Positions 966-13,101 of a DNA stretch of 64,000 nucleotides are shown here, piece after piece (within the stretch, counting starts at the first letter, position 1; the number at the start of each line of letters is the position of its first letter). Source of the stretch: Opitutaceae bacterium. GTDB lineage: Bacteria > Verrucomicrobiota > Verrucomicrobiia > Opitutales > Opitutaceae. The notes beneath the pieces were generated by a model, which was given only the letters and a program-made list of their open reading frames with translations, was not told the DNA's origin and searched no databases. The stretch covers positions 62,001 through 126,000 of the forward strand of contig JAEUHC010000006.1 in the NCBI GenBank assembly GCA_016794785.1, written 5' to 3'. Both the position numbers and the translations under genes were made by a program.

Positions 966-2425
966 CTAGGCGGACAGTTTCATTGCCGCCTTACGCCGCA
1001 CGATGCGAGCGGGCGCGGGACACCTCGCAGTTCCGATCGTCTCGCCTTCCGGCGGGATCACTGGCGGCCTTGCCGCCACTGCCGGTTTTGCGTCGTGTGG
1101 CACGAACACATCGCCCTCCCGTCGATAGCCTCGCGGGACGGCGTGCTTGAGATTGTATTCGTCGACCGCGAGCGCCGATACGGGTTTGCGGGCGCGCAGT
1201 GCTTCGAGGACCAGGGCATCGTTGGCCGGTCCGAGCCCGGCGGCGCGATACTCCTTCGGCGACATCAGCTCTGCCGGCTTTTGCGAAACAGTCTCGGCGG
1301 AAGCTTCCGCCTCGCTCTCTACCTCCGTGGGTGCCGGCTGCTCCGTTGCCGTGGCATCGACTTCGGTGCTGGCGTCGGCCGCCTGTAGGCTCGATGCCTG
1401 ATTTTTCGTGAGATCGAGCTGTTTCACGAGTTCGGCCTGCCGGGCCGACAATTCCCGGTAGCGCTCCTCGTGCTCGAAGACGCCACCGACAGCTTTGGTC
1501 AGGCTAGCGAGGTCAGTTTTCGTCCGGGCCAGCTCCTCCCGCGTGCGAACCAAATGATCATCGATGCTGCGGGCGGCGTGCTCCAGCGAACTCACGATCC
1601 CGACGGGCGACGGCGACACGTTGGCCGGATATTCCATCGCACCGGCGAGGTTAACCTTTTCGGGATTGGTGGAGCGGAACGTGACCTTGAAACCGGCCAA
1701 ATCGCCGAGCACGGCGTTGGCGGGACGCCCGTGCGGGTGATCTGTGCGGTGATCCTCGATCGCGAGGACAAGCGCGCCGCCCGCCTTCACGCGCTCGGTG
1801 AACGTCTGCTTCTCGACCGTCATCGTGAACTTCTCCCCGCTGGTATCGCGCCGCGTCTTCAAGTCCTGCTCCAGCCCCGCGACGTGTTTTTCGAGCCGCG
1901 TGGTATCGCTTTCGAGCATGCGGATGCGGTTACGGTGTGAGAACTGTGTCTCCTGATGCTCGGAACGCAGGCGGGACAACCGCATCACCTCCGAATCCAC
2001 CTTCGCCTTTTCGATGACGAGCGGATTGCCGGATGCGATCGCCTTCACCTCGGCGTAGGTGAGCGCGGGCGAGTCGAGATCCTCGATGCGGCGCGCGGTC
2101 GAGTGCCCTGTCATCACCTGCGCGATGAATTTCGCCTTGGTTTCGAGGAGTTGCCACGAATAGGCATCGAAGCTGCCCTCGGTCACGTAGCGGAGGATGC
2201 GCACCGTGGCATTGGTATTGCCCTGCCGCCGGATGCGCCCCTCGCGTTGCTCGATGTCCGCGGGGCGCCAAGGGGCGTCGAGATGATGGAGCGCGACGAG
2301 CTTGGCCTGCACGTTGGTGCCAGCTCCCATTTTCTGCGTGGAGCCGATGAGCACGCGCACTTTGCCGGCCCGAACATCTTTGAAAAGCGCAGCCTTCGCT
2401 GCGTCTGAATCGTGATCCTGAACTA
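966..2425 (-). pseudogene. C-terminal half of split N6-methylase/SNF2 helicase
   Basis: This is the second RecA-like helicase domain and tail of the protein whose N-terminal part lies at 5970-10025. It carries the helicase motif V/VI region: VLIGSTQKMGAGTNVQ and QREGRIRRQGN (Q-x2-GR-x-x-R). A coiled coil and a conserved tail follow. The gene is interrupted by the 3.5-kb recombinase element. At the element border the open frame continues into the inverted repeat, which supplies an in-frame ATG with a good Shine-Dalgarno. Separate translation of this half is therefore possible. Intact relatives on plasmids and ICEs are single very long proteins. Confidence 0.8.
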
Positions 2426-2488
2426 ATGTGGAGGCGGCAAAAATGTGGAATGGACGGACAGTGGTCATGTTTCTCCTCTGGGAACGGT
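2424..2488 (+). repeat. Left 65-bp terminal inverted repeat of the RIT-like element
   Basis: The 65 bases are identical to the reverse complement of 5903-5967. The match decays just inside (about 14 of 22 bases) and is near-perfect for a few bases outside (CTGAA). ATGTGG occurs twice in the arm, so it may be a recombinase-binding half-site. On the outward (minus) strand it holds AGAGGAGAAAC directly before an ATG. Confidence 0.95.
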
Positions 2489-2541
2489 TCTCTTCACTTA
2501 ACATTACTGAAGCCTTTCCGATCGGGCCGTGGAGTGGCGGG

Positions 2542-4848
2542 GTGAATACCACCCCGCTCATCAATCGATTGTTCGTTCGTCGTGCCGGCCATCATTTGGC
2601 CCGGCCGATTTTTGGCTCCGTGTTGGAGAGTTTCGCTCAGCGGCTCGTAGCCCAAGGATACCCCCCGCAAACCATCCAACGGGTAATCGGACGTCTGTGG
2701 CGCGTAGAGCAGTGGCTGCAACAACGACAACGGATAACCTCGTTGCGTGATTTGTTGCCAGAAACGTTGGCAGCGGCCGTGGCGCACTTTCGTCCCCGCG
2801 ACGCAGACATGCCGGCGGCCGTGCGGGCGATGGGCCGGTTTCTCCAAGAACGGGGGCTCATTCCGCAGGCCAAACCCGGCCCGTCTTCGCGCTCGCACTT
2901 GGAAGCGCAACGATTCGGCGCCTACTTGGTTGAGGTTCGGGGCCTGGCGGGGAGCACGGTCGATACGCACATCCGCCGCGCAATTCGGTTCCTGGAGTTC
3001 ATGCACTTCAACCGGCGACCAAGGGCGCTGTGCGGGTTGCGCCGCGCGTCGATCGAGGAGTTCGTGCGACAACTCGCGCGCACGAACACTCGTTTCAGTT
3101 TGGCGCAGGCACTCGCGTCGCTGCGCGGATTTCTGCGGTTCGAGTTTTCTCAAGGCAAGCTGGCTTTGCCACTGCACGAGCAAATCGACCGACCGCGGCT
3201 GTATCTGGGCGAACGGCTCCCGCGTGCGGCCGCCCGAACGGATGTGACGCGGTTGCTGCGCTCGATCGACCGATCGCGACCCGCGGGTATGCGCGACTTC
3301 ACGATCTTGTATCTGGCCGCCACCTACGGTCTGCGCAGCGACGAACTGCGACAGATGCGCGTGGAGGATATCGATTGGCGCAACGCCGTGCTGAACGTCC
3401 AACAGGCAAAGACACGGCAAGTGCTCCGCTTGCCGTTGCTCGACGAGGCGGGTGAGGTGCTGGCGCGGTATCTCCGGCTCGGCAGACCGCGGACTGGGTT
3501 GCGGCAACTTTTCTTTCTCGCCCGCGCACCGATGAAGCCCCTTGGGCGCAGCTCGGTCGGTGCCATGCTTCGCCGCCGGCTCCGGCGCAGCGGTTTGTCC
3601 TCGCCGAACTTTAGCATGCATGGGCTGCGCCACTCGGTGGCAGTGCATCTGGTGCGCCGCGGAGTGCCGATAAAATCGATCGGCGACGTGTTGGGCCATC
3701 GCGACCTGACGAGCACCGCGGTGTATCTCAGGCTCAACGTGGATGATTTGCGCACGGTGGGCCTGCCGGTCCCCCGCGCAGAGCAAGCGGCGAGGTTGTT
3801 GGGCCGCGATTGGGGAGATCGCTTCCCGCGTATCCGTAATTTGGATGGGCCTCGACCACGCGTCGTGACCTGCTTCCGCAGCGGCTTTGCTCGGAGTCTC
3901 AATCGCTACTTGGAGAACCGTCGCACGCTGGGCCGCGGCTGTCGGGTCATCGAGTCGGTGTTGCGCCTGTGGGACACCTTCTTGCACGACCGCCAAGGCG
4001 ATGCTCCGAAGGTTTCGCACGAACAACTCGATGCTTGGTTGAAGTCGCAGGCGGCATTGGCCCCAGTCACCCGCCGCCAACGCCTGCTGATCGTGCGCAG
4101 GTTTCTCGTCTATCATCGTCGCGAACACCCGCGCACCTTCGTGCCGGATTGGGCTACCTTCCCGAAAGCGACACCGCCACGGCACCCGCGACTGGTCTCT
4201 CCGAAAGAGATGGGCGTATTGCTGGCGACCGCGACGCAGTTGGGAAGAACCAACGCCAATCCGTTGCGCGCTGGGACAATCCGCCTCGGCCTGCTGCTGC
4301 TGTTCTGCTGCGGGCTGCGGCAGCAAGAGCTGTTGCGCCTGCAAATTCGGCATTACGACCGGGTGGAACGACTCCTCCGAATCGAGGCGACGAAGTTTCA
4401 TAAATCCCGCCTGGTGCCGTTGCCGACGTCGGCCGCAAAAGCACTCGAAACGTTTCTCGCGCTCAGGCGCGCGCGCGGTCTTCCGTATGCGCCCGGCAGC
4501 TTCCTGCTGTGGAGCGGCGAAAGGCGGCCCGAGGCTGGCTACACCGGCACCGGCCTCACCAGATCGTGGCAACAGCTCTGCCTCAGTGCCGGTGTCTTGG
4601 ACGAGAGAGGCCGTGCGCCCCGATTGCACGACCTGCGCCACAGCTTCGCCGTCGAAGCCCTCCATCGCTGGTATGCCGCGGGGATCAATCCTCAAGCACG
4701 GCTCGTTCATCTCGCGACGTATCTCGGGCACGTTAATCCATCCTCCTCGCACTACTATTTGCAGTTCACGCCGGCGCTTCGTGCAGCCGCGAGTGAACGG
4801 TTCGAGCGATCGTTCGGAATCCTTGCTTCGAACGGAGGTGCCCGATGA
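2542..4848 (+). CDS. Double tyrosine recombinase (RitA-RitB-like fusion)
   Basis: The 768-residue protein contains two full tyrosine-recombinase units. Unit 1 has Arg265 (YGLRSDEL), His360-x2-Arg363 (HGLRH), His386 (GHRDLTS) and Tyr395. Unit 2 has Arg593 (CGLRQQEL), His696-x2-Arg699 (HDLRH), His730 (GHVNPSS) and Tyr738/739. Each unit has its own SAM-like core-binding domain. I chose the GTG at 2542, which has GGAG 7 bases upstream; the longer open frame from 2428 only reads through the terminal repeat. The 3' end overlaps the next recombinase gene by ATGA. RIT elements normally encode RitA and RitB separately (about 400 and 330 residues), so this is a fusion with both active sites intact. Confidence 0.9.
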   Translation: MNTTPLINRLFVRRAGHHLARPIFGSVLESFAQRLVAQGYPPQTIQRVIGRLWRVEQWLQQRQRITSLRDLLPETLAAAVAHFRPRDADMPAAVRAMGRFLQERGLIPQAKPGPSSRSHLEAQRFGAYLVEVRGLAGSTVDTHIRRAIRFLEFMHFNRRPRALCGLRRASIEEFVRQLARTNTRFSLAQALASLRGFLRFEFSQGKLALPLHEQIDRPRLYLGERLPRAAARTDVTRLLRSIDRSRPAGMRDFTILYLAATYGLRSDELRQMRVEDIDWRNAVLNVQQAKTRQVLRLPLLDEAGEVLARYLRLGRPRTGLRQLFFLARAPMKPLGRSSVGAMLRRRLRRSGLSSPNFSMHGLRHSVAVHLVRRGVPIKSIGDVLGHRDLTSTAVYLRLNVDDLRTVGLPVPRAEQAARLLGRDWGDRFPRIRNLDGPRPRVVTCFRSGFARSLNRYLENRRTLGRGCRVIESVLRLWDTFLHDRQGDAPKVSHEQLDAWLKSQAALAPVTRRQRLLIVRRFLVYHRREHPRTFVPDWATFPKATPPRHPRLVSPKEMGVLLATATQLGRTNANPLRAGTIRLGLLLLFCCGLRQQELLRLQIRHYDRVERLLRIEATKFHKSRLVPLPTSAAKALETFLALRRARGLPYAPGSFLLWSGERRPEAGYTGTGLTRSWQQLCLSAGVLDERGRAPRLHDLRHSFAVEALHRWYAAGINPQARLVHLATYLGHVNPSSSHYYLQFTPALRAAASERFERSFGILASNGGAR

Positions 4849-5861
4849 ACACCGATCGTCGCTCTATATTGGCGCACTCTCTGCACGTTTTCCTCGTCGA
4901 GTATTTGCCCCGCCAACGCGCGATCAGCCCGCACACGGTTCACAGCTATCGCGACAGCCTCAAACTGCTTCTCCAGTTCGTCGCCGGGAAGAAGGGCGAC
5001 GTGAGCGCGCTGAAGCTCGAAAATCTTTCCGTCGATCGCGTCACGGCGTTCCTGCTGCATCTGGAAAAAGTCCGGAAGAATCGCGCGAGCACGCGCAACG
5101 TCCGGCTGAGCGCCATCCACAGTTTCTTTCGCTATGTCGGAACGCAGCATCCGGAGTATGTCGAGCAGACGCAGCGCGTGCTGGGCATCCCGTTCAAGCG
5201 CGTGGAAACCCGAGCCATCCAGCACGTGGAGTTTTCCGAGTTGCAGACCATGCTCGACGGCATCGACCGCTCGCGGGCCGACGGCCGCCGTGACTTTGCT
5301 CTCTTGAACGTGTTGTTCAACACCGGCGCCCGGGTGAGCGAGATCGTCGGGCTGATGGCGGCGGATCTGCGGCTGGCGGGACCGCCGAGCGTGCTGCTGC
5401 GGGGCAAAGGTCGCAAGGAACGCGTTTGCCCCTTGTGGCCCGCCACCGCGCGATTGCTCCGCGAACACCTGGAAGAACGCGGCATCACACCGGATCGACC
5501 CGAAACGGTTTTCCGCAATCATCGCGGTGCTCCGCTGACGCGGTTTGGCATTCGCGTTATCTTGCGAAAGCACGTCCAACGAACTGCCGTCGCTATGCCG
5601 AGCCTGGCGCACAAACGAATCCATCCCCACAGCCTCCGACATGGCACCGCTGTCCACCTCCTGCGCGCCGGCGTTGATTTGAGCTCGATTGCGCACTGGC
5701 TCGGTCACGCGAGTCTCAACACCACGAACAAGTATCTGGCTATGGATCTCGAAACCAAACGGGAGGCCTTGGCAAAAACCGAGCCGCTGCTGAACCGTCG
5801 GAAACATCCGGCCGCGTGGCGACGGGATCCTGGTCTCATCAAATGGCTGGAGAGCCTGTAA
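4845..5861 (+). CDS. Tyrosine recombinase, third member of the RIT-like set (RitC-like)
   Basis: The 338-residue protein has a SAM-like N-terminal core-binding domain and a catalytic domain with GARVSEI (Arg), HSLRH (His/Arg), GHASLNTTNKY (His and nucleophilic Tyr). It is XerC/D-like in length and motif spacing. The start ATG overlaps the TGA of the fused recombinase gene, so translation is probably coupled. It ends about 40 bases before the right inverted repeat. It presumably acts with the two domains of the upstream protein on the terminal repeats. Confidence 0.93.
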   Translation: MNTDRRSILAHSLHVFLVEYLPRQRAISPHTVHSYRDSLKLLLQFVAGKKGDVSALKLENLSVDRVTAFLLHLEKVRKNRASTRNVRLSAIHSFFRYVGTQHPEYVEQTQRVLGIPFKRVETRAIQHVEFSELQTMLDGIDRSRADGRRDFALLNVLFNTGARVSEIVGLMAADLRLAGPPSVLLRGKGRKERVCPLWPATARLLREHLEERGITPDRPETVFRNHRGAPLTRFGIRVILRKHVQRTAVAMPSLAHKRIHPHSLRHGTAVHLLRAGVDLSSIAHWLGHASLNTTNKYLAMDLETKREALAKTEPLLNRRKHPAAWRRDPGLIKWLESL

Positions 5862-5902
5862 TACACGCGAAGAAATGAGGCCAATAATGTGGAATGAAGC
5901 AG

Positions 5903-5967
5903 ACCGTTCCCAGAGGAGAAACATGACCACTGTCCGTCCATTCCACATTTTTGCCGCCTCCACATTA
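5903..5967 (-). repeat. Right 65-bp terminal inverted repeat of the RIT-like element
   Basis: It is identical in inverted orientation to 2424-2488. Just inside it, a further inverted copy of ATGTGGAATG (5887-5896) faces the copy within the repeat. Outward on the plus strand it carries AGAGGAGAAAC and an ATG that opens a short frame (about 27 codons) into the flank. Confidence 0.95.
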
Positions 5968-5974
5968 ATTCAGC

Positions 5975-5992
5975 TATGTGTAGCTACACATA
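5975..5992. repeat. 18-bp perfect palindrome outside the right repeat
   Basis: TATGTGTAGCTACACATA is a perfect palindrome between the right inverted repeat and the resumed host coding sequence. No counterpart is seen at the left end. It could be part of the element end, a binding site, or remains of an earlier insertion. Confidence 0.85.
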
Positions 5993-8900
5993 ATTGGATA
6001 AACTGAACCTCCGCCGCGGGGACACCCTGCGTGACAAGCTTCGTTTTGATGTCGTGATACACGGACAATCCGTCGCGCAGCTTGTGCGGCGTGGAGAGAT
6101 CGCAGAAGACGAGTTGAGTGAGACGCTGCGCACTGGTCTCGCGCCAGACGGAAAGGATTTCCCGGACGGCTTGGTTGGTTTTACTTTCCGGGTGATCGGG
6201 GGCGCGCGGCACCATCAGCCGGAGATCGAGCGCGGCTTTGCGGCCCTCGCCGGTGATCTTGAGCATGTTGTCGTCCCGCGGATCGACCTTGCTGTTTTTT
6301 ATTTTCTCGGCCCGGGCGGCGAGCGATGACACAAACTTCCTCAATTCAGGCGTGGTCGGCGCCTGCACGATGCGGGGCTTGCCGCCTTCGAGCGCCGGCA
6401 CCGGGAGTTTGAGCATGTCGGCCGTCTGAATGTCGGCGACCTGCCGAAACGTCTGCATGAGCTCCGGCACATTGACGAACCGCGCGAAGCGCGTGTTTAG
6501 CCGGTAGCCGGCGCCGTCGGGGGCGAGTTCCATCGCCGTCACCGTCTCGCCGTAGGTTGCCGCCCACGAATCGAAGTGCACGAGTTTCTGTCGCCGCAGC
6601 GTCTCCATCTGGAGGTAGCGCTGCATGGTGAACATTTCGGCCATCGTGTTCGTGATGGGTGTGCCCGTGGCGAACACGACCCCGCCGCCGCCATTCACGC
6701 GCTGCACGTGCTGCACTTTCAGAAACATGTCGAAGGCTCGCTCGGAGGCCGCCTGTGGCAGCCCGGCGACGCGCGTCATTTTTGTAACGTAGAAGAGATT
6801 CTTGAACGCCTGCGCCTCGTCGACGAACAGCCGGTCGATGCCGAGTTCCTCGAAGGTCAGGGTGATGTCCTTCTTGTGCGCGGCTGAGAGGCCGAGGATT
6901 TTCGATTCGAGCCGTTTCTTCGCGCGTTCGAGTTCCTTGACCATGCGGCTTCCGCGCGAGCCGTCCGACTGCTCGCGGATGCACTGCTCCAGTTCCCCGA
7001 GCTCGCCGGTGAGGAAGTCTTTTTGCGCCTTTTCGGAAAGCGGCAGCCGCTCGAATCCAGAATGGGTAACGATTACCGCATCCCAATTTCCCGTCGCAAT
7101 GCGTCCCATCAGTTCTCGTCGTCGCGAGCTTTCAAAATCCGCTTTGCCCGCGACGAGGATGTTGGCCCCGGGATACAGCATCAGTAACTCGGACGAGAAC
7201 TGCCCGAGCATGTGATTCGGGACGACGTAGAGCGGCTTCCGGGCGAGCCCGAGGCGCTTCAATTCCATCCCGGCGGCGGCCATCGTAAAGGTCTTGCCTG
7301 CGCCGACGACGTGGCCGAGGAGCACGTTGGGCGACTGGACGATGCGCCACACCCCCGCTTTCTGATGCGTGCGCAACGTGATGTTGGGACTCGCGCCGGG
7401 GAGCGTGAGATGATCGCCGGAAAAGGTGCGCAGCCGGTGGTGGTTGAATTCCCGGTTGTAGAAACCCACGAGCCGTTCACGCCGGGCGTCGTCCTCCCAC
7501 ACCCACTCGGCGAAGCGGTCTTTGATCTTCTGTTGCTTCTCCCGCGCGCTCTCGGTGGCACCGGGGTTGATGACGGGTTTCCCCTCGGCGTCGGCATCGT
7601 AGACGGTCGGTGTGCGGAGGTTGAGCGCGTCCTCAATCAACTCGTGTGCAGGCGCGCGTTCCGTGCCCCATTCGGATAGGTTGGCGGCGTGGCTTTTGAC
7701 CCCTGGCCCGGCCTCGACCGACCAGAGCCCGAGCGTCGGCACATGGCGGACGTCGAGTTCGCGTGCGGCGCGCGGTGGTAGGCGAAGCAGCTCCCGCGCG
7801 AAACGCCCCACGTCGTCCACCGGAATCCACACCGCGCCAAGCCGCGCGTCGATTTCGGTGGCCTTGAGTTCGTCGGGCTGCACGCCCCGCAGCGCCTCGA
7901 CGTTCACGCGAAATGTAGGATCCGCCTCGGCGGCGCGTTCGGCGATCGTGAGTTTCTCGCGCACGTTGCCGGAGAGATACTCGTCGTCGGTCTCCCACCG
8001 GCGCGTCACGGGGTTCAGGTAGATCGTGCCCGCCAGTTCCGCCAAAAACTCCGACTCTGGTTTTCCGAGCAGCGTCCCGATGTGCTCCAAATCGACTCGG
8101 CCTTTCTCGCTCAACGTCACGAGGAGCGCCTCTTTGGCGGTGCCGGCCTGAACCACCGGCGCCCGCGGCTGGATGGTCCGCTCCCGAAAGATTGCGGTCT
8201 TCGCCGCGGTGCCGGTGTCCTCGCTATAGTTTTCGAGCGAGAGCAGCAGCGGCAGATCGGGATCGCCGGCGAACGCACGCAGGTTGGTTGACTCGGAGAT
8301 CGGACCGAATTGCCCGACGAAGTAATCGTAGTCCTGGTTGAGCCGGAAGCGCGCCGCGGCGATTTCCTGGTCGCTGCGATTCTCGACCTGCTTGCGCAGG
8401 CACTCGCGCGCGGCGTCGCGCACGTAGATCAGGCGGCGAATGCGTCGCGCGGTCTGCGCGGAAACATCCGTGAGCAGGACCAGCTCCTCGCCCTCCCGGC
8501 GCGCGACGCCGCCCCCGCCTTCCTCGGTGAGCACGTAGGCGTTGGGCTTCACGCCGGGCGGCACGGGAATCGAGCGACGAATTTTGGCCGACTCCTCAGC
8601 TGAAAGCGGCTGGTAGATTCCGACGGGCAGCGTGCCGACGACCGCGGCGAGCGCCTCGCCGAGATCGCGGCCGTCGTCGGCGAGCCTGACGGACTCGCGA
8701 CCATACATGCCGTGCTCCGTTTGCTCCATGCGGCCGAGGAGCATCGCGGGATGGGCGTGAAAGTATTCGTTGAGGAAGATCGGTGTTTCCTCGGAGATGG
8801 GCCGGCTCTCGGCCCACGCGGGCCCGGACGGAGCTTCCCGCGGGTCGCGCTTCCGCAGGATCACGATGTCGGCGGTGACCTCCGTGTTGGCGTTCTTCTT

Positions 8901-9706
8901 GAACGCCGTGCACGGCAGACGAATGGCGGCCACGAGGTTCGCCGACTTCGCGACGGTTTCGCGGAAATACGGATATTGTTTATCCATCGTTCCGCGCGAC
9001 GTGATGAATGCCAGCAGCCCGCCCGGCCGCACTCGCTCCAGCGCCGCGACGAAAAAGTAGTCGTGGATATGAAACTTCCTTGGATTGAGTTTCGGATCGT
9101 GAGGCGCGTAGTCGCCGAACGGCACGTTGGAAATCGCGAGGTCGAACGAGTTGGTCGGCAACGAGGCGTCCTCGAACGGCGTCGTGCGGATCAGCGCGTC
9201 CGGATACAGCATCCGCGCCAGCCGCGCTGTGACCGGATCGATTTCGATGCCGGTGAGATCGGAGCCCGTCCGCATCCCGTCGGGCATCAGACCAAAAAAG
9301 TGCCCGAGACCGCAGGCAGGCTCGAGCACGCGCCCTTGCTTGAAACCGAGCCGCTCGACCGCCGTATACATCGCGCGGACGACTGTCGGCGACGTGTAGT
9401 GGGCGTTGAGCACCGTGGCCTGCGCGGAGCGGTATTCGTCGGGGAGCAGGAGTTCTTTTAGCGTCGCCTGCTCCGACTTCCATTTCGGAGCTTCCGCGGC
9501 CGTGGCAAAAACCTGCGGCAGGCCGCCCCAGCCGGTGTATTTGACGAGCGCGGCCTTTTGCTCGGGCGTAGCGATGCGCGCGTTGCCCTCGATCTCGCGC
9601 AGCAGTCGGATGGCTGCGACGTTTTGCTCGAACTTCCGGCGCAGTGAACCCTCGCCAAGTTCGTCGGCGTCGGTGATCCGGTAGTTGGACTGATTCCGCG
9701 CAGGCG

Positions 9707-9967
9707 CTACGACGCCGCCGTTTCCGGCGGGATCAGGATGTAGCGCTCCCGCACCATTTCCCAAGCCTGGTCGTGGGCCTGCTGCGGGTCGAGTCCCTGT
9801 TGACGGAAATCCCGCATCAGTTGCTCCATTTCGTCCAGCGTCCGATTCTGGGCTTCCAAAAGAGACCCATTCAGCGTCCCTGTCCGCTCCAGGTCCCGCA
9901 CCCGCCGCGGGCAGTGCTCCCGCCAGTGGGCTTCCGCCATCCGGGCGTAGGTCAGCAGTTCGTTCAT
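9707..9967 (-). CDS. Small conserved-looking mobile-element protein nested in the methylase 5' end
   Basis: The 86-residue frame starts with MNELLTYARMAEAHWREH and ends with QAWEMVRERYILIPPE, an amphipathic, soluble-looking protein. Its codons have strong G/C preference at position 3, while the overlapping methylase frame there gives low-complexity G/A/P sequence. It therefore looks like the genuine coding frame of this stretch. It resembles small proteins I know from mobile elements ending in a W-E-x-V-x-E-R-Y-x-x-P pattern; function unknown. Only the methylase downstream and the 122-residue gene upstream give context. Confidence 0.55.
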   Translation of the reverse strand: MNELLTYARMAEAHWREHCPRRVRDLERTGTLNGSLLEAQNRTLDEMEQLMRDFRQQGLDPQQAHDQAWEMVRERYILIPPETAAS

Positions 9968-10028
9968 GAGAGGAAGGCCCGAAGAGATCGAGTTGGGCCG
10001 GATGATCGGTGGTTCTCTTGGCCATCGT

Positions 10029-10398: not shown

Positions 10399-13101
10399 TT
10401 AGTTGCGGCCCATGGCCGTCTTGGCCGGCGGAACGGGGAGCGGATCAGGCGTGCCCCGCAGCATCGCCTTCGCGCTCGGGCGAACGCGGCCACGATAGAG
10501 TCGTGAAAGAAAGAAACGCCGGGACGAAGAGTCCGGCGCCGGGCGCGGCACCAGCTCCGACGCGAGCATCCGGTCGCCGGGCCGCTGCATCGCCTCGCGC
10601 GCGGCGTGCAAGTCGGTCGTGTAGATCATCTGGCTCTCGCGGAAGCGGGAGTTGGACACGTAAGCCTGCTTGAGATTGCCGGCCGCGATGCCCTCATCGG
10701 CCATGATGAGGATGCCGCGATCCACGGTCTTGCCCTGCGCGCTGTGGGAAGTGGACGCGTAGCCGTGGGTAAACTGGCGGAAACATGCGGGGATCGCGCG
10801 ACCGTCCTTGAGTTGAATTCCGCCGTCCGTCGCAAAACCCGCGACATCCACCAAGTCGCCGTTCCTCAAACCGGCAGTTTTGAGGTTGGCTCGCACCATC
10901 AAGCGATCACCCACCGCCACATCCAAATCCATGGGAATGCCGACTTCAAAACCGGTCGTCTTCCGTGGATTGAGACGACGCTCTGATCCGTCGCCGCGCC
11001 GGACGAGCAATTGATCGTCCTCACGACGGACGACCACCACGTGCTCATGTTGTTCGTAGCCGTGGCCGGAACGGTTAAAGGCGAGCACATCACCGGCGCG
11101 GTAGTTGTCAGCCCGGCGTCGCTCCTCGGCGGTCCACTTCATGAGCGAAACGGTCGGCATTCGCTGATCGGCTGCTGCGACTACACCGGCGGCCTTCAAT
11201 CTCGACCGGACCTCAGCGCTAAAGCGGTGAATCTCCGACCAGACCGGGGAAATCGCCAGACACGACTGACCTGCGCGCACGGTGCGCACGTAGTCGTCCG
11301 CGGCTTGGCCTAGAAGGCTCGCAACATCTCTGGTTTCCCGAACCGCGCCCAGACGACCGAAGCGCTCCAACGCGCCGACGGCATCGTTGCGGGCGAGACA
11401 GGCGACCGCCGCTCGATACTCCGGATTTTTCTGCCGGCGAATCTGCGTGAGACGGACGACCGGAACCTGCGCGAATTTTTGGAGGCAGCGCACCGCGTCG
11501 CCGGCCTCGACGGAATTGTGCTGCTTGATGTCGCCGACGAGCAGCAGCCGATTGTCGTTCGCGGCCGCTAGGCGACAAAGATCGCGCATCTCGCGCACCG
11601 ACACGAGGCCAGCCTCATCCACGATCAGGACGCGCCCGCGCGTCGCTTCCTGCAACTTTGGATTCACGAGCAACTGCTTCAGCGTATCGGCCTCGGCGGT
11701 GAGTTCGTGCCGGAGCACGTCGGTTGCGCCCGCCGATGGCGCGCAACCGAACGCCCGCCCTCCGGCCCGCTCGATTCCGGCCACGATCTGCTTCAAGGAG
11801 GTAGTCTTGCCGCTGCCGGCGTCGCCTTGGAAAATCACGACACGGGAGCGCGCCTTCAACACGCCCTGCACGGCCGTCGCTTGATCTTCTGCCAGGCCGA
11901 CATCTGCAGCAAATCGACCCAACGGCGGGCAAGCCTTCGTCACGGACGCAGCCCAGGTGACAAACTCATCCTCCGCCCGTAGCGCATCGCGCGAGGCAAC
12001 ATCGACGCCGTGCCGCAGCAATTCACCCGACGCGAGCCGGCGCTCCTTGGCGAGCTTGAGGCCATCGAGTGCCACATGCCCACGTGCGGCGACAAGCGCC
12101 TCGCGCAATAACACCCGTTCGTCGACCACGGAGCGGCGCTCGAACACGTGGGCCTCTGCGGAGACAATCGCAGCCGTCGCATCCATGTTCGGCCGGGTGC
12201 GTGGCGTTCCGCTGGCCGCGGCAATTACCCGCCGAGCCGCCTCGAGAACATCCCCGGCCTCGGCCTCCCAACCTGCCCGCAACTCGGCCGCCGTCGCCTT
12301 CGTCTTGGCGGCGCGGCTGCGCGCGGTGATCACTTGCAGCTCGTCCTGGGAGGTCGCGCCGGCCGCTACCGCCTGTCGGAGGATTTCCTTTCGGCGCTTA
12401 CTGAAACGGTCGCGGAGTTCGGGCGGGAATCCAGCGATATGGAATCCGATGCCGCGAGCTCGCTCCAATTCATAGCCCGCACCGACCATGCGCGCCGCGA
12501 GCTTGTTGTAGCAGACCTCCCGGAGGTAGCCTTGGTGCCGGTAGAAGGCCGAGGGTTGCACGCTCTTCCAGCGACTCTCCGTCTCATCAAACGTGAGATT
12601 CATGATACACACGTGCGTGTGCAGTTGCGGGTCGAGTGCGCGGTTGGCGTCGTGCGTTACGACGGCCGCGATCATGTTTCCGGTCGCCCGATCTTCGTTG
12701 ACCCCGCCTCGCCGGACGCGGGTCGCCGCCATTGCCTCGATTTCGGATAGGGTCTCGCGCACCGCCTCATTCCACCAGCCGGCGATACGTTGGTCGCCGC
12801 CCACCAAATGGGCCACGGAAACATCCTTGGGTGCGGAAATCTGCGCGAAAAAGCAGACCCGCCGGTGCGCGCCCTTGTCGCGCACCATCAGCTTGTCGCC
12901 TGTCGCCGGGTGTCGGCCCGAACAAAGCGCCTCGAAATCTGGTAACCGACAGGCACCGCTCAGTCCTAATCGAGCCGCGCCGACACCATGCCACGTCATC
13001 TCAGCCTGACCACTTTCGGTCAGATAGTCGCCGACCATGTGCTCGCGGAAATACTCTACGGCACCACCAACCTTCATACAGGGCTTGTCGAATCGAACCA
13101 C
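10399..13101 (-). CDS. MobF-family relaxase (TrwC/TraI type) with RecD-like helicase
   Basis: The 900-residue protein nicks and unwinds DNA at oriT. N-terminal TrwC relaxase domain: candidate Tyr17 and Tyr26, and the three-His metal site His150, His161, His163 (THDANRALDPQLHTH closely matches TrwC). Central/C-terminal AAA_30 helicase: QGDAGSGKTTS (Walker A) and VLIVDEAGLV (Walker B), with a RecD2/TraA-like C-terminal part (FTHGYASTSHSAQGKT). The start is GTG at 13101, or the ATG at 13077. The dyad TTGCATACGTTTGCAA is 18 bases upstream of the GTG, suggesting repression or autoregulation. It heads a leftward operon with the 122-residue gene and the methylase. Confidence 0.95.
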   Translation of the reverse strand: MVRFDKPCMKVGGAVEYFREHMVGDYLTESGQAEMTWHGVGAARLGLSGACRLPDFEALCSGRHPATGDKLMVRDKGAHRRVCFFAQISAPKDVSVAHLVGGDQRIAGWWNEAVRETLSEIEAMAATRVRRGGVNEDRATGNMIAAVVTHDANRALDPQLHTHVCIMNLTFDETESRWKSVQPSAFYRHQGYLREVCYNKLAARMVGAGYELERARGIGFHIAGFPPELRDRFSKRRKEILRQAVAAGATSQDELQVITARSRAAKTKATAAELRAGWEAEAGDVLEAARRVIAAASGTPRTRPNMDATAAIVSAEAHVFERRSVVDERVLLREALVAARGHVALDGLKLAKERRLASGELLRHGVDVASRDALRAEDEFVTWAASVTKACPPLGRFAADVGLAEDQATAVQGVLKARSRVVIFQGDAGSGKTTSLKQIVAGIERAGGRAFGCAPSAGATDVLRHELTAEADTLKQLLVNPKLQEATRGRVLIVDEAGLVSVREMRDLCRLAAANDNRLLLVGDIKQHNSVEAGDAVRCLQKFAQVPVVRLTQIRRQKNPEYRAAVACLARNDAVGALERFGRLGAVRETRDVASLLGQAADDYVRTVRAGQSCLAISPVWSEIHRFSAEVRSRLKAAGVVAAADQRMPTVSLMKWTAEERRRADNYRAGDVLAFNRSGHGYEQHEHVVVVRREDDQLLVRRGDGSERRLNPRKTTGFEVGIPMDLDVAVGDRLMVRANLKTAGLRNGDLVDVAGFATDGGIQLKDGRAIPACFRQFTHGYASTSHSAQGKTVDRGILIMADEGIAAGNLKQAYVSNSRFRESQMIYTTDLHAAREAMQRPGDRMLASELVPRPAPDSSSRRFFLSRLYRGRVRPSAKAMLRGTPDPLPVPPAKTAMGRN

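Follow-up and report, generated by a model that had tools for sequence, protein, structure and literature searches.

The locus raises the question of whether a RIT element can carry two of its three tyrosine recombinases in a single polypeptide, and of what such a fusion would mean for the way in which the three enzymes share their work. It lies in a 64,000-nucleotide stretch of an Opitutaceae bacterium contig, hereafter the window. As described, RIT elements measure about 3.5 kb, are equipped with a palindrome as well as inverted repeats, and carry three genes with short overlaps (PMC3414803, PMC2864759). RitA has two sequential CB-type N-terminal domains and RitC an extra C-terminal helix (PMC8138268). 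The initial annotation had stated that RITs consist of three separate genes, in agreement with the first two of these sources. The known RITs of pHG1 from Cupriavidus necator, pNGR234a and Aromatoleum EbN1 (Van Houdt 2009/2012, Ricker 2013) share with the window element the RitA-RitB-RitC order, a length of about 3.5 kb without cargo, inverted ends, a palindrome at one flank, the ATGA overlap of ritB and ritC, and insertion into genes. Unlike them, this element has only two open reading frames: ritA and ritB form one gene, with no start codon or Shine-Dalgarno (SD) sequence for ritB, so that three separate adjacent genes are not found here. The element is a RIT-derived variant and not a canonical RIT, since A and B form one ORF, although the B-C overlap is present.

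The fused gene, at 2542-4845 on the forward strand, runs for 768 codons without an internal stop and ends with a TGA at 4846-4848. Its product contains two Phage_integrase stretches (Pfam, E value 1.5e-44) and a SAM-like N-domain. The RitA half (residues 1-411, 2542-3774, forward strand) comprises an extra N-terminal helical domain, the SAM-like domain and a catalytic domain with R265/H360/R363/H386/Y395, as assigned from Pfam, the domain tree, the alignment and a structural model. The RitB half (residues 447-768 plus the stop codon, 3880-4848, forward strand), assigned from Pfam, the domain tree and the alignment, carries R593/H696/R699/H730/Y739. That one 768-codon frame holds two complete catalytic sets had been proposed from the letters alone; ORFs, Pfam and alignment confirm the exact coordinates and all ten residues. 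These residues are conserved in both halves across the aligned fused homologues, except for H360 and, in a single truncated copy, for the distal residues of the B half. H360 is replaced by Q in one fused member and by R in the truncated one. The two nucleophiles, Y395 and Y739, are found without exception in the full-length fused members.

Between the halves, alignment and model delimit a linker of about 35 residues (412-446, 3775-3879, forward strand), which is basic, proline-rich and of low pLDDT. A PRIR(P) motif (window 3823-3840, residues about 428-433) is present in this otherwise variable linker in most fused proteins, and P429 is invariant in 11 aligned rows. An AlphaFold2 model, computed from an alignment of fused rows alone, shows two recombinase folds joined by the low-confidence linker (mean pLDDT 82); its pTM of 0.57 gives no firm position of one head against the other. 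In the model, helical blocks 6-103 and 117-203 precede the RitA catalytic domain. The SAM-like profile matches the second block only, and the first has no CB-fold match on its own. Sequence and fold searches with the fused protein matched Xer, integron, lambda and Cre structures. The window recombinases are Xer-related, yet their domains score far under the NCBIfam equivalog cut-offs (192 bits against 329.6 for XerD; 166 and 179 bits against 335 for XerC).

The third recombinase gene, ritC (4845-5861, forward strand, 338 aa), was identified from ORFs, Pfam, the tree and a C-terminal alignment. Its product has one Phage_integrase and one SAM-like N-domain (Pfam). The extra C-terminal helix of RitC is represented by an (L/I)xxWLxxL-type segment, LIKWLESL in the window, which is common to nearly all RitC rows. 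The start of ritC overlaps the stop of the fused gene in an ATGA, and a GGAGG ribosome-binding site lies at 4834-4838 (forward strand), within the end of the fused gene, as indicated by comparison of the junctions of fused members. The ATGA coupling noted earlier for this third recombinase is confirmed.

A tree of 114 domains gathered the RitA rows in one group (support 95) and the RitB rows in another (support 100), while the RitC rows also clustered, taking in a single stray Xer row on a long branch. The RIT proteins of pHG1, NGR234 and EbN1 fall in the same groups. The three window domains were placed in the RitA, RitB and RitC groups in that order, as the initial annotation had expected. 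When A, B and C were concatenated for a tree, the ten fused rows included came out as one clade (support 100), whose sister is a clade of separate-gene proteobacterial plasmid RITs (Bradyrhizobium, Paraburkholderia, Rhizobium and Halioglobus). A single fused clade means that one fusion event suffices. As traced by these trees, ritA and ritB merged into one gene a single time, in an ancestor within a Verrucomicrobiota lineage, and have stayed fused. Closest by sequence among separate-gene RITs are L051, L052, L062, L060 and L054 (on Bradyrhizobium, Paraburkholderia, Rhizobium tumorigenes and Halioglobus plasmids), with about 35-42% identity in A and B and 44-48% in C. They share the end architecture of the window element but differ in having three genes, with A and B in different frames.

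Fused relatives were found by a GTDB contig scan with the window protein, which is sensitive to close relatives, and by whole-genome searches. The scan gave locus L005, a fused ORF of 779 codons with 47% identity to the window in A, 54% in B and 66% in C. Within the class of its genome, fused loci were present in G769, G787 (two loci) and G1113; within the order of G1113, they were present in G1150, G1183, G1210, G1225 and G1285, with a truncated one in G1260. Altogether 12 fused loci occur in 11 genomes, window included, 11 of them full length and all from Verrucomicrobiota. Besides the window there are 11 loci (10 full length) in 10 other genomes, the full-length ones being 42-52% identical to the L005 reference. 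Outside Verrucomicrobiota, the distribution was covered by plasmids and by the same scan with its sensitivity to close relatives. Among the gene-annotated records of the best 60 plasmid records, no single gene spanned A and B. In the L005 and G787b contigs one and the same host flank stands on either side of the element, probably from collapsed copies. In G1260, the fused RIT with the truncated B half (L097) lies beside a complete separate-gene RIT on the opposite strand. In G1113 (L112, L113) and G1210 (L114), isolated 90-bp ends and a decayed element are signs of earlier insertions or of non-autonomous derivatives.

Could the joined frame be a sequencing or assembly error, or the fusion of decayed genes? 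Most fused relatives come from draft or metagenome assemblies, and a real pseudo-fusion is known elsewhere: L039 (G071, 2297-4579), a 761-codon frame considered as a second type of fusion, is a frameshifted, decayed copy of the neighbouring L038 in which the A active site has been lost. L039 was rejected as a fusion, and this joining of RitA and RitB by frameshift is useful as a negative control. Counting the window, the fused clade is represented by 11 full-length loci from ten genomes that were assembled independently, and the frame is open in the ten full-length loci other than the window, which excludes a joining sequencing error in practice. Catalytic residues are kept in both halves. Moreover, codon comparison of the closest pairs shows both halves to be under purifying selection, at dN/dS of about 0.15-0.3 (0.17-0.30 in A and 0.15-0.17 in B). 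For G1225/G1210, dN was 0.07 and 0.04 with dS 0.23; for G787a/b, dN was 0.11 and 0.12 with dS 0.65 and 0.81. Error or decay is thus refuted in practice for the fused clade, and we regard it as having almost no chance of being correct.

The junctions show what was lost on fusion. In six separate-gene relatives inspected, the ritB frame differed from the ritA frame in every case; the A-B junction was an ATGA with a purine-rich SD in three of them and another short junction in the other three. A scan of the A-B junction in all fused members found no start codon or SD at a conserved place, and none of them had reverted by regaining a ritB start. The linker region of some members does hold start codons or SD-like stretches, at non-conserved places. 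An independent internal start for RitB was rejected on this basis, and RitB can be expected only as part of the fusion. The B-C junction has been kept as ATGA or GTGA in 11/11 full-length fused members, with GGAGG upstream of ritC in 10 and GGAAGG in the remaining one. A different arrangement is found in the Opitutus terrae-type RIT (L026-L029), which resembles the window element in being from the same phylum and in having A and B in one frame. Here, however, a TGA parts the two (AGG-TGA-NNN-ATG), and an "open frame 790" once counted as a fusion reads through this TGA. Origin of the fusion from this arrangement was rejected, as the concatenated tree places it in another clade, where it is not an intermediate. 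In that separate clade (L026, L030, L031, L032, L099, L100), ritA and ritB share a frame with one stop between them (AGG TGA NNN ATG in those read), possibly a readthrough or reinitiation junction.

The 3,576-bp element extends beyond its ORFs; with its 6-bp flanking repeats it runs from about 2418 to 5999. Like known RITs (PMC3414803), it is about 3.5 kb long without cargo, with terminal inverted repeats and a flank palindrome. The left repeat (2418-2509, forward strand), with repeated AATGTGG-type sites, and the right repeat (5882-5973, reverse strand), defined by comparison of the ends, form 92-nt inverted ends with 91% complementarity. Between the right repeat and the host lies a 20-bp near-palindrome, CTATGTGTAGCTACACATAA (5974-5993), made up of two abutting core half-sites. 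It is present on this side only. The element interrupts a host gene on the reverse strand, whose 5' part (N6-methylase/SNF2-like, 6000-10025) and 3' part (helicase C-terminal domain, 966-2417) were assigned from ORFs, Pfam and restoration of the ORF. Removing the 3,576 bp in silico while keeping one 6-bp overlap leaves the host ORF open for 1,827 codons, and at the insertion point the uninterrupted homologues on plasmids carry two codons exactly (6 nt), reading F-(I/V)-H-D. Judged by this comparison of sequences, insertion into the host gene is precise. The two flanking overlaps, CTGAAC (2418-2423) and TTGGAT (5994-5999), are not identical and form an imperfect target repeat, as would be expected if the overlap sequences of element and target differ. 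The element is present in a single copy in its genome.

The surroundings of the insertions show further features. A TrwC-type relaxase gene (window 10402-13101, reverse strand) lies next to the interrupted methylase/helicase gene, which gives the host region the look of an integrated mobilisable element. At several insertions (flanks of L051, L060, L052, L081, L088 and L005), the target codons encode a motif resembling Walker B, either LLILD (found in IS21 helper ATPases) or LFVDEA (in an SNF2-like helicase). A universal Walker B target rule was rejected, as it holds for several insertions and not for all. For the 6-bp overlap, (C/G)T(G/C)GAY is a frequent sequence; G1150, G769 and G1285 differ.

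Exact ends were defined by the four identical O. terrae-type copies (L026-L029, G029), which occupy different sites and read GGTTGTGTTATGTG...CACATAACACAACC. An 18-bp palindrome, TATGTGCTGCAGCACATA, with a 7-bp repeat lies on the right in two of the four and on the left in the other two. Their unit of about 5.1 kb is longer than the usual 3.5 kb, possibly because of cargo. Together with the precise insertion in the window, these copies are indirect evidence that such elements move. A palindrome on one side, either left or right, is also found in most fused elements and separate-gene sisters with readable flanks. Dif-like cores and a palindrome at one flank suggest a circular intermediate with two inverted cores. 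The element would move via a circle, at whose junction two dif-like cores would stand in inverted orientation, each with a 10-bp arm, a 6-bp overlap and a 10-bp arm. These cores, CTCAACATTA-6bp-TTATGTTGAG and CTCAACATAA-6bp-TAATGTTGAG, would abut in the palindrome, and recombination of either one with the target would leave the palindrome on the left or on the right.

At dif, two different tyrosine recombinases, XerC and XerD, share a core that has a 6-bp overlap and act on its two arms. As each core of the circle junction is dif-like, it invites occupancy by A and B in the same manner. The fused protein would be an obligate RitA-RitB heterodimer whose two heads take the two arms of a single core, so that a pair of fused chains would bring four active sites to a synapse. 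RitC, made separately through coupled translation, would load on the other sites or set the order of strand exchange. XerC and XerD differ from this system in being separate host proteins that carry out no transposition. GInt/SE elements and Tn554 resemble it in that several tyrosine recombinases cooperate on a single element; they differ in having a fourth helper protein or TnpC, and cargo. No fusion is described for them in PMC5385486 and PMC10214605. No published fused RIT or tandem double tyrosine recombinase was found in the literature searched, a search outside which subscription papers such as Ricker 2013 lay. RITs themselves are already known; the RitA-RitB fusion is apparently new among them.

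That the fusion fixes the stoichiometry of A and B, as the initial annotation argued, follows from the gene structure; what it says about assembly on the ends is inferred. The fusion might be without mechanistic meaning, with A and B already made at about 1:1 by coupled translation, the join fixed by chance and the heads acting as if separate. Tight coupling of A and B in the separate-gene sisters is in line with this, as is a linker that is long, poorly conserved and predicted to be flexible. However, the fused state persists in every sampled clade member at synonymous divergence above 1 while B and C stayed separate, and the lack of any revertant among these members points the same way. We consider a meaningless fusion unlikely, though it is the most serious of the alternatives. 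With dN/dS from about 0.3 to above 1, the linker is fast-evolving and could be either a passive tether or a protease target. Its length, low pLDDT and basic, proline-rich composition would suit cutting after translation into ordinary RitA and RitB. The element, though, encodes no processing enzyme, and PRIR is the only conserved motif of the linker; release of separate enzymes seems improbable. The best explanation as a whole, to which we assign a probability of about 0.72, is a RIT with a once-fused ritA-ritB, moving via a circle with two cores and using an obligate A-B pair on one core. The single copy in the genome and the unequal 6-bp overlaps weigh against it. The most likely role of the fusion, by inference, is to make the RitA-RitB pair that loads on one core obligate.

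A natural RitA-RitB fusion that has been conserved forces A and B to be present at 1:1 and makes their adjacency the leading hypothesis, for which the fused protein is a single-chain reagent. Because the fusion is old and inherited throughout a whole element family, it offers a way of finding out how three enzymes share one job. Tentatively, and with somewhat less than even odds, the RitA-RitB heterodimer on one of two inverted circle cores may be the working unit of RIT transposition in general, with RitC as a third, differently placed partner; the division of labour among the three enzymes would then be fixed, and a symmetric two-core att site would integrate through either core. The one-sided palindrome and the dif-like cores provide a concrete model of the att site of RITs, elements whose ends had been described as departing from the usual core and arm sites.
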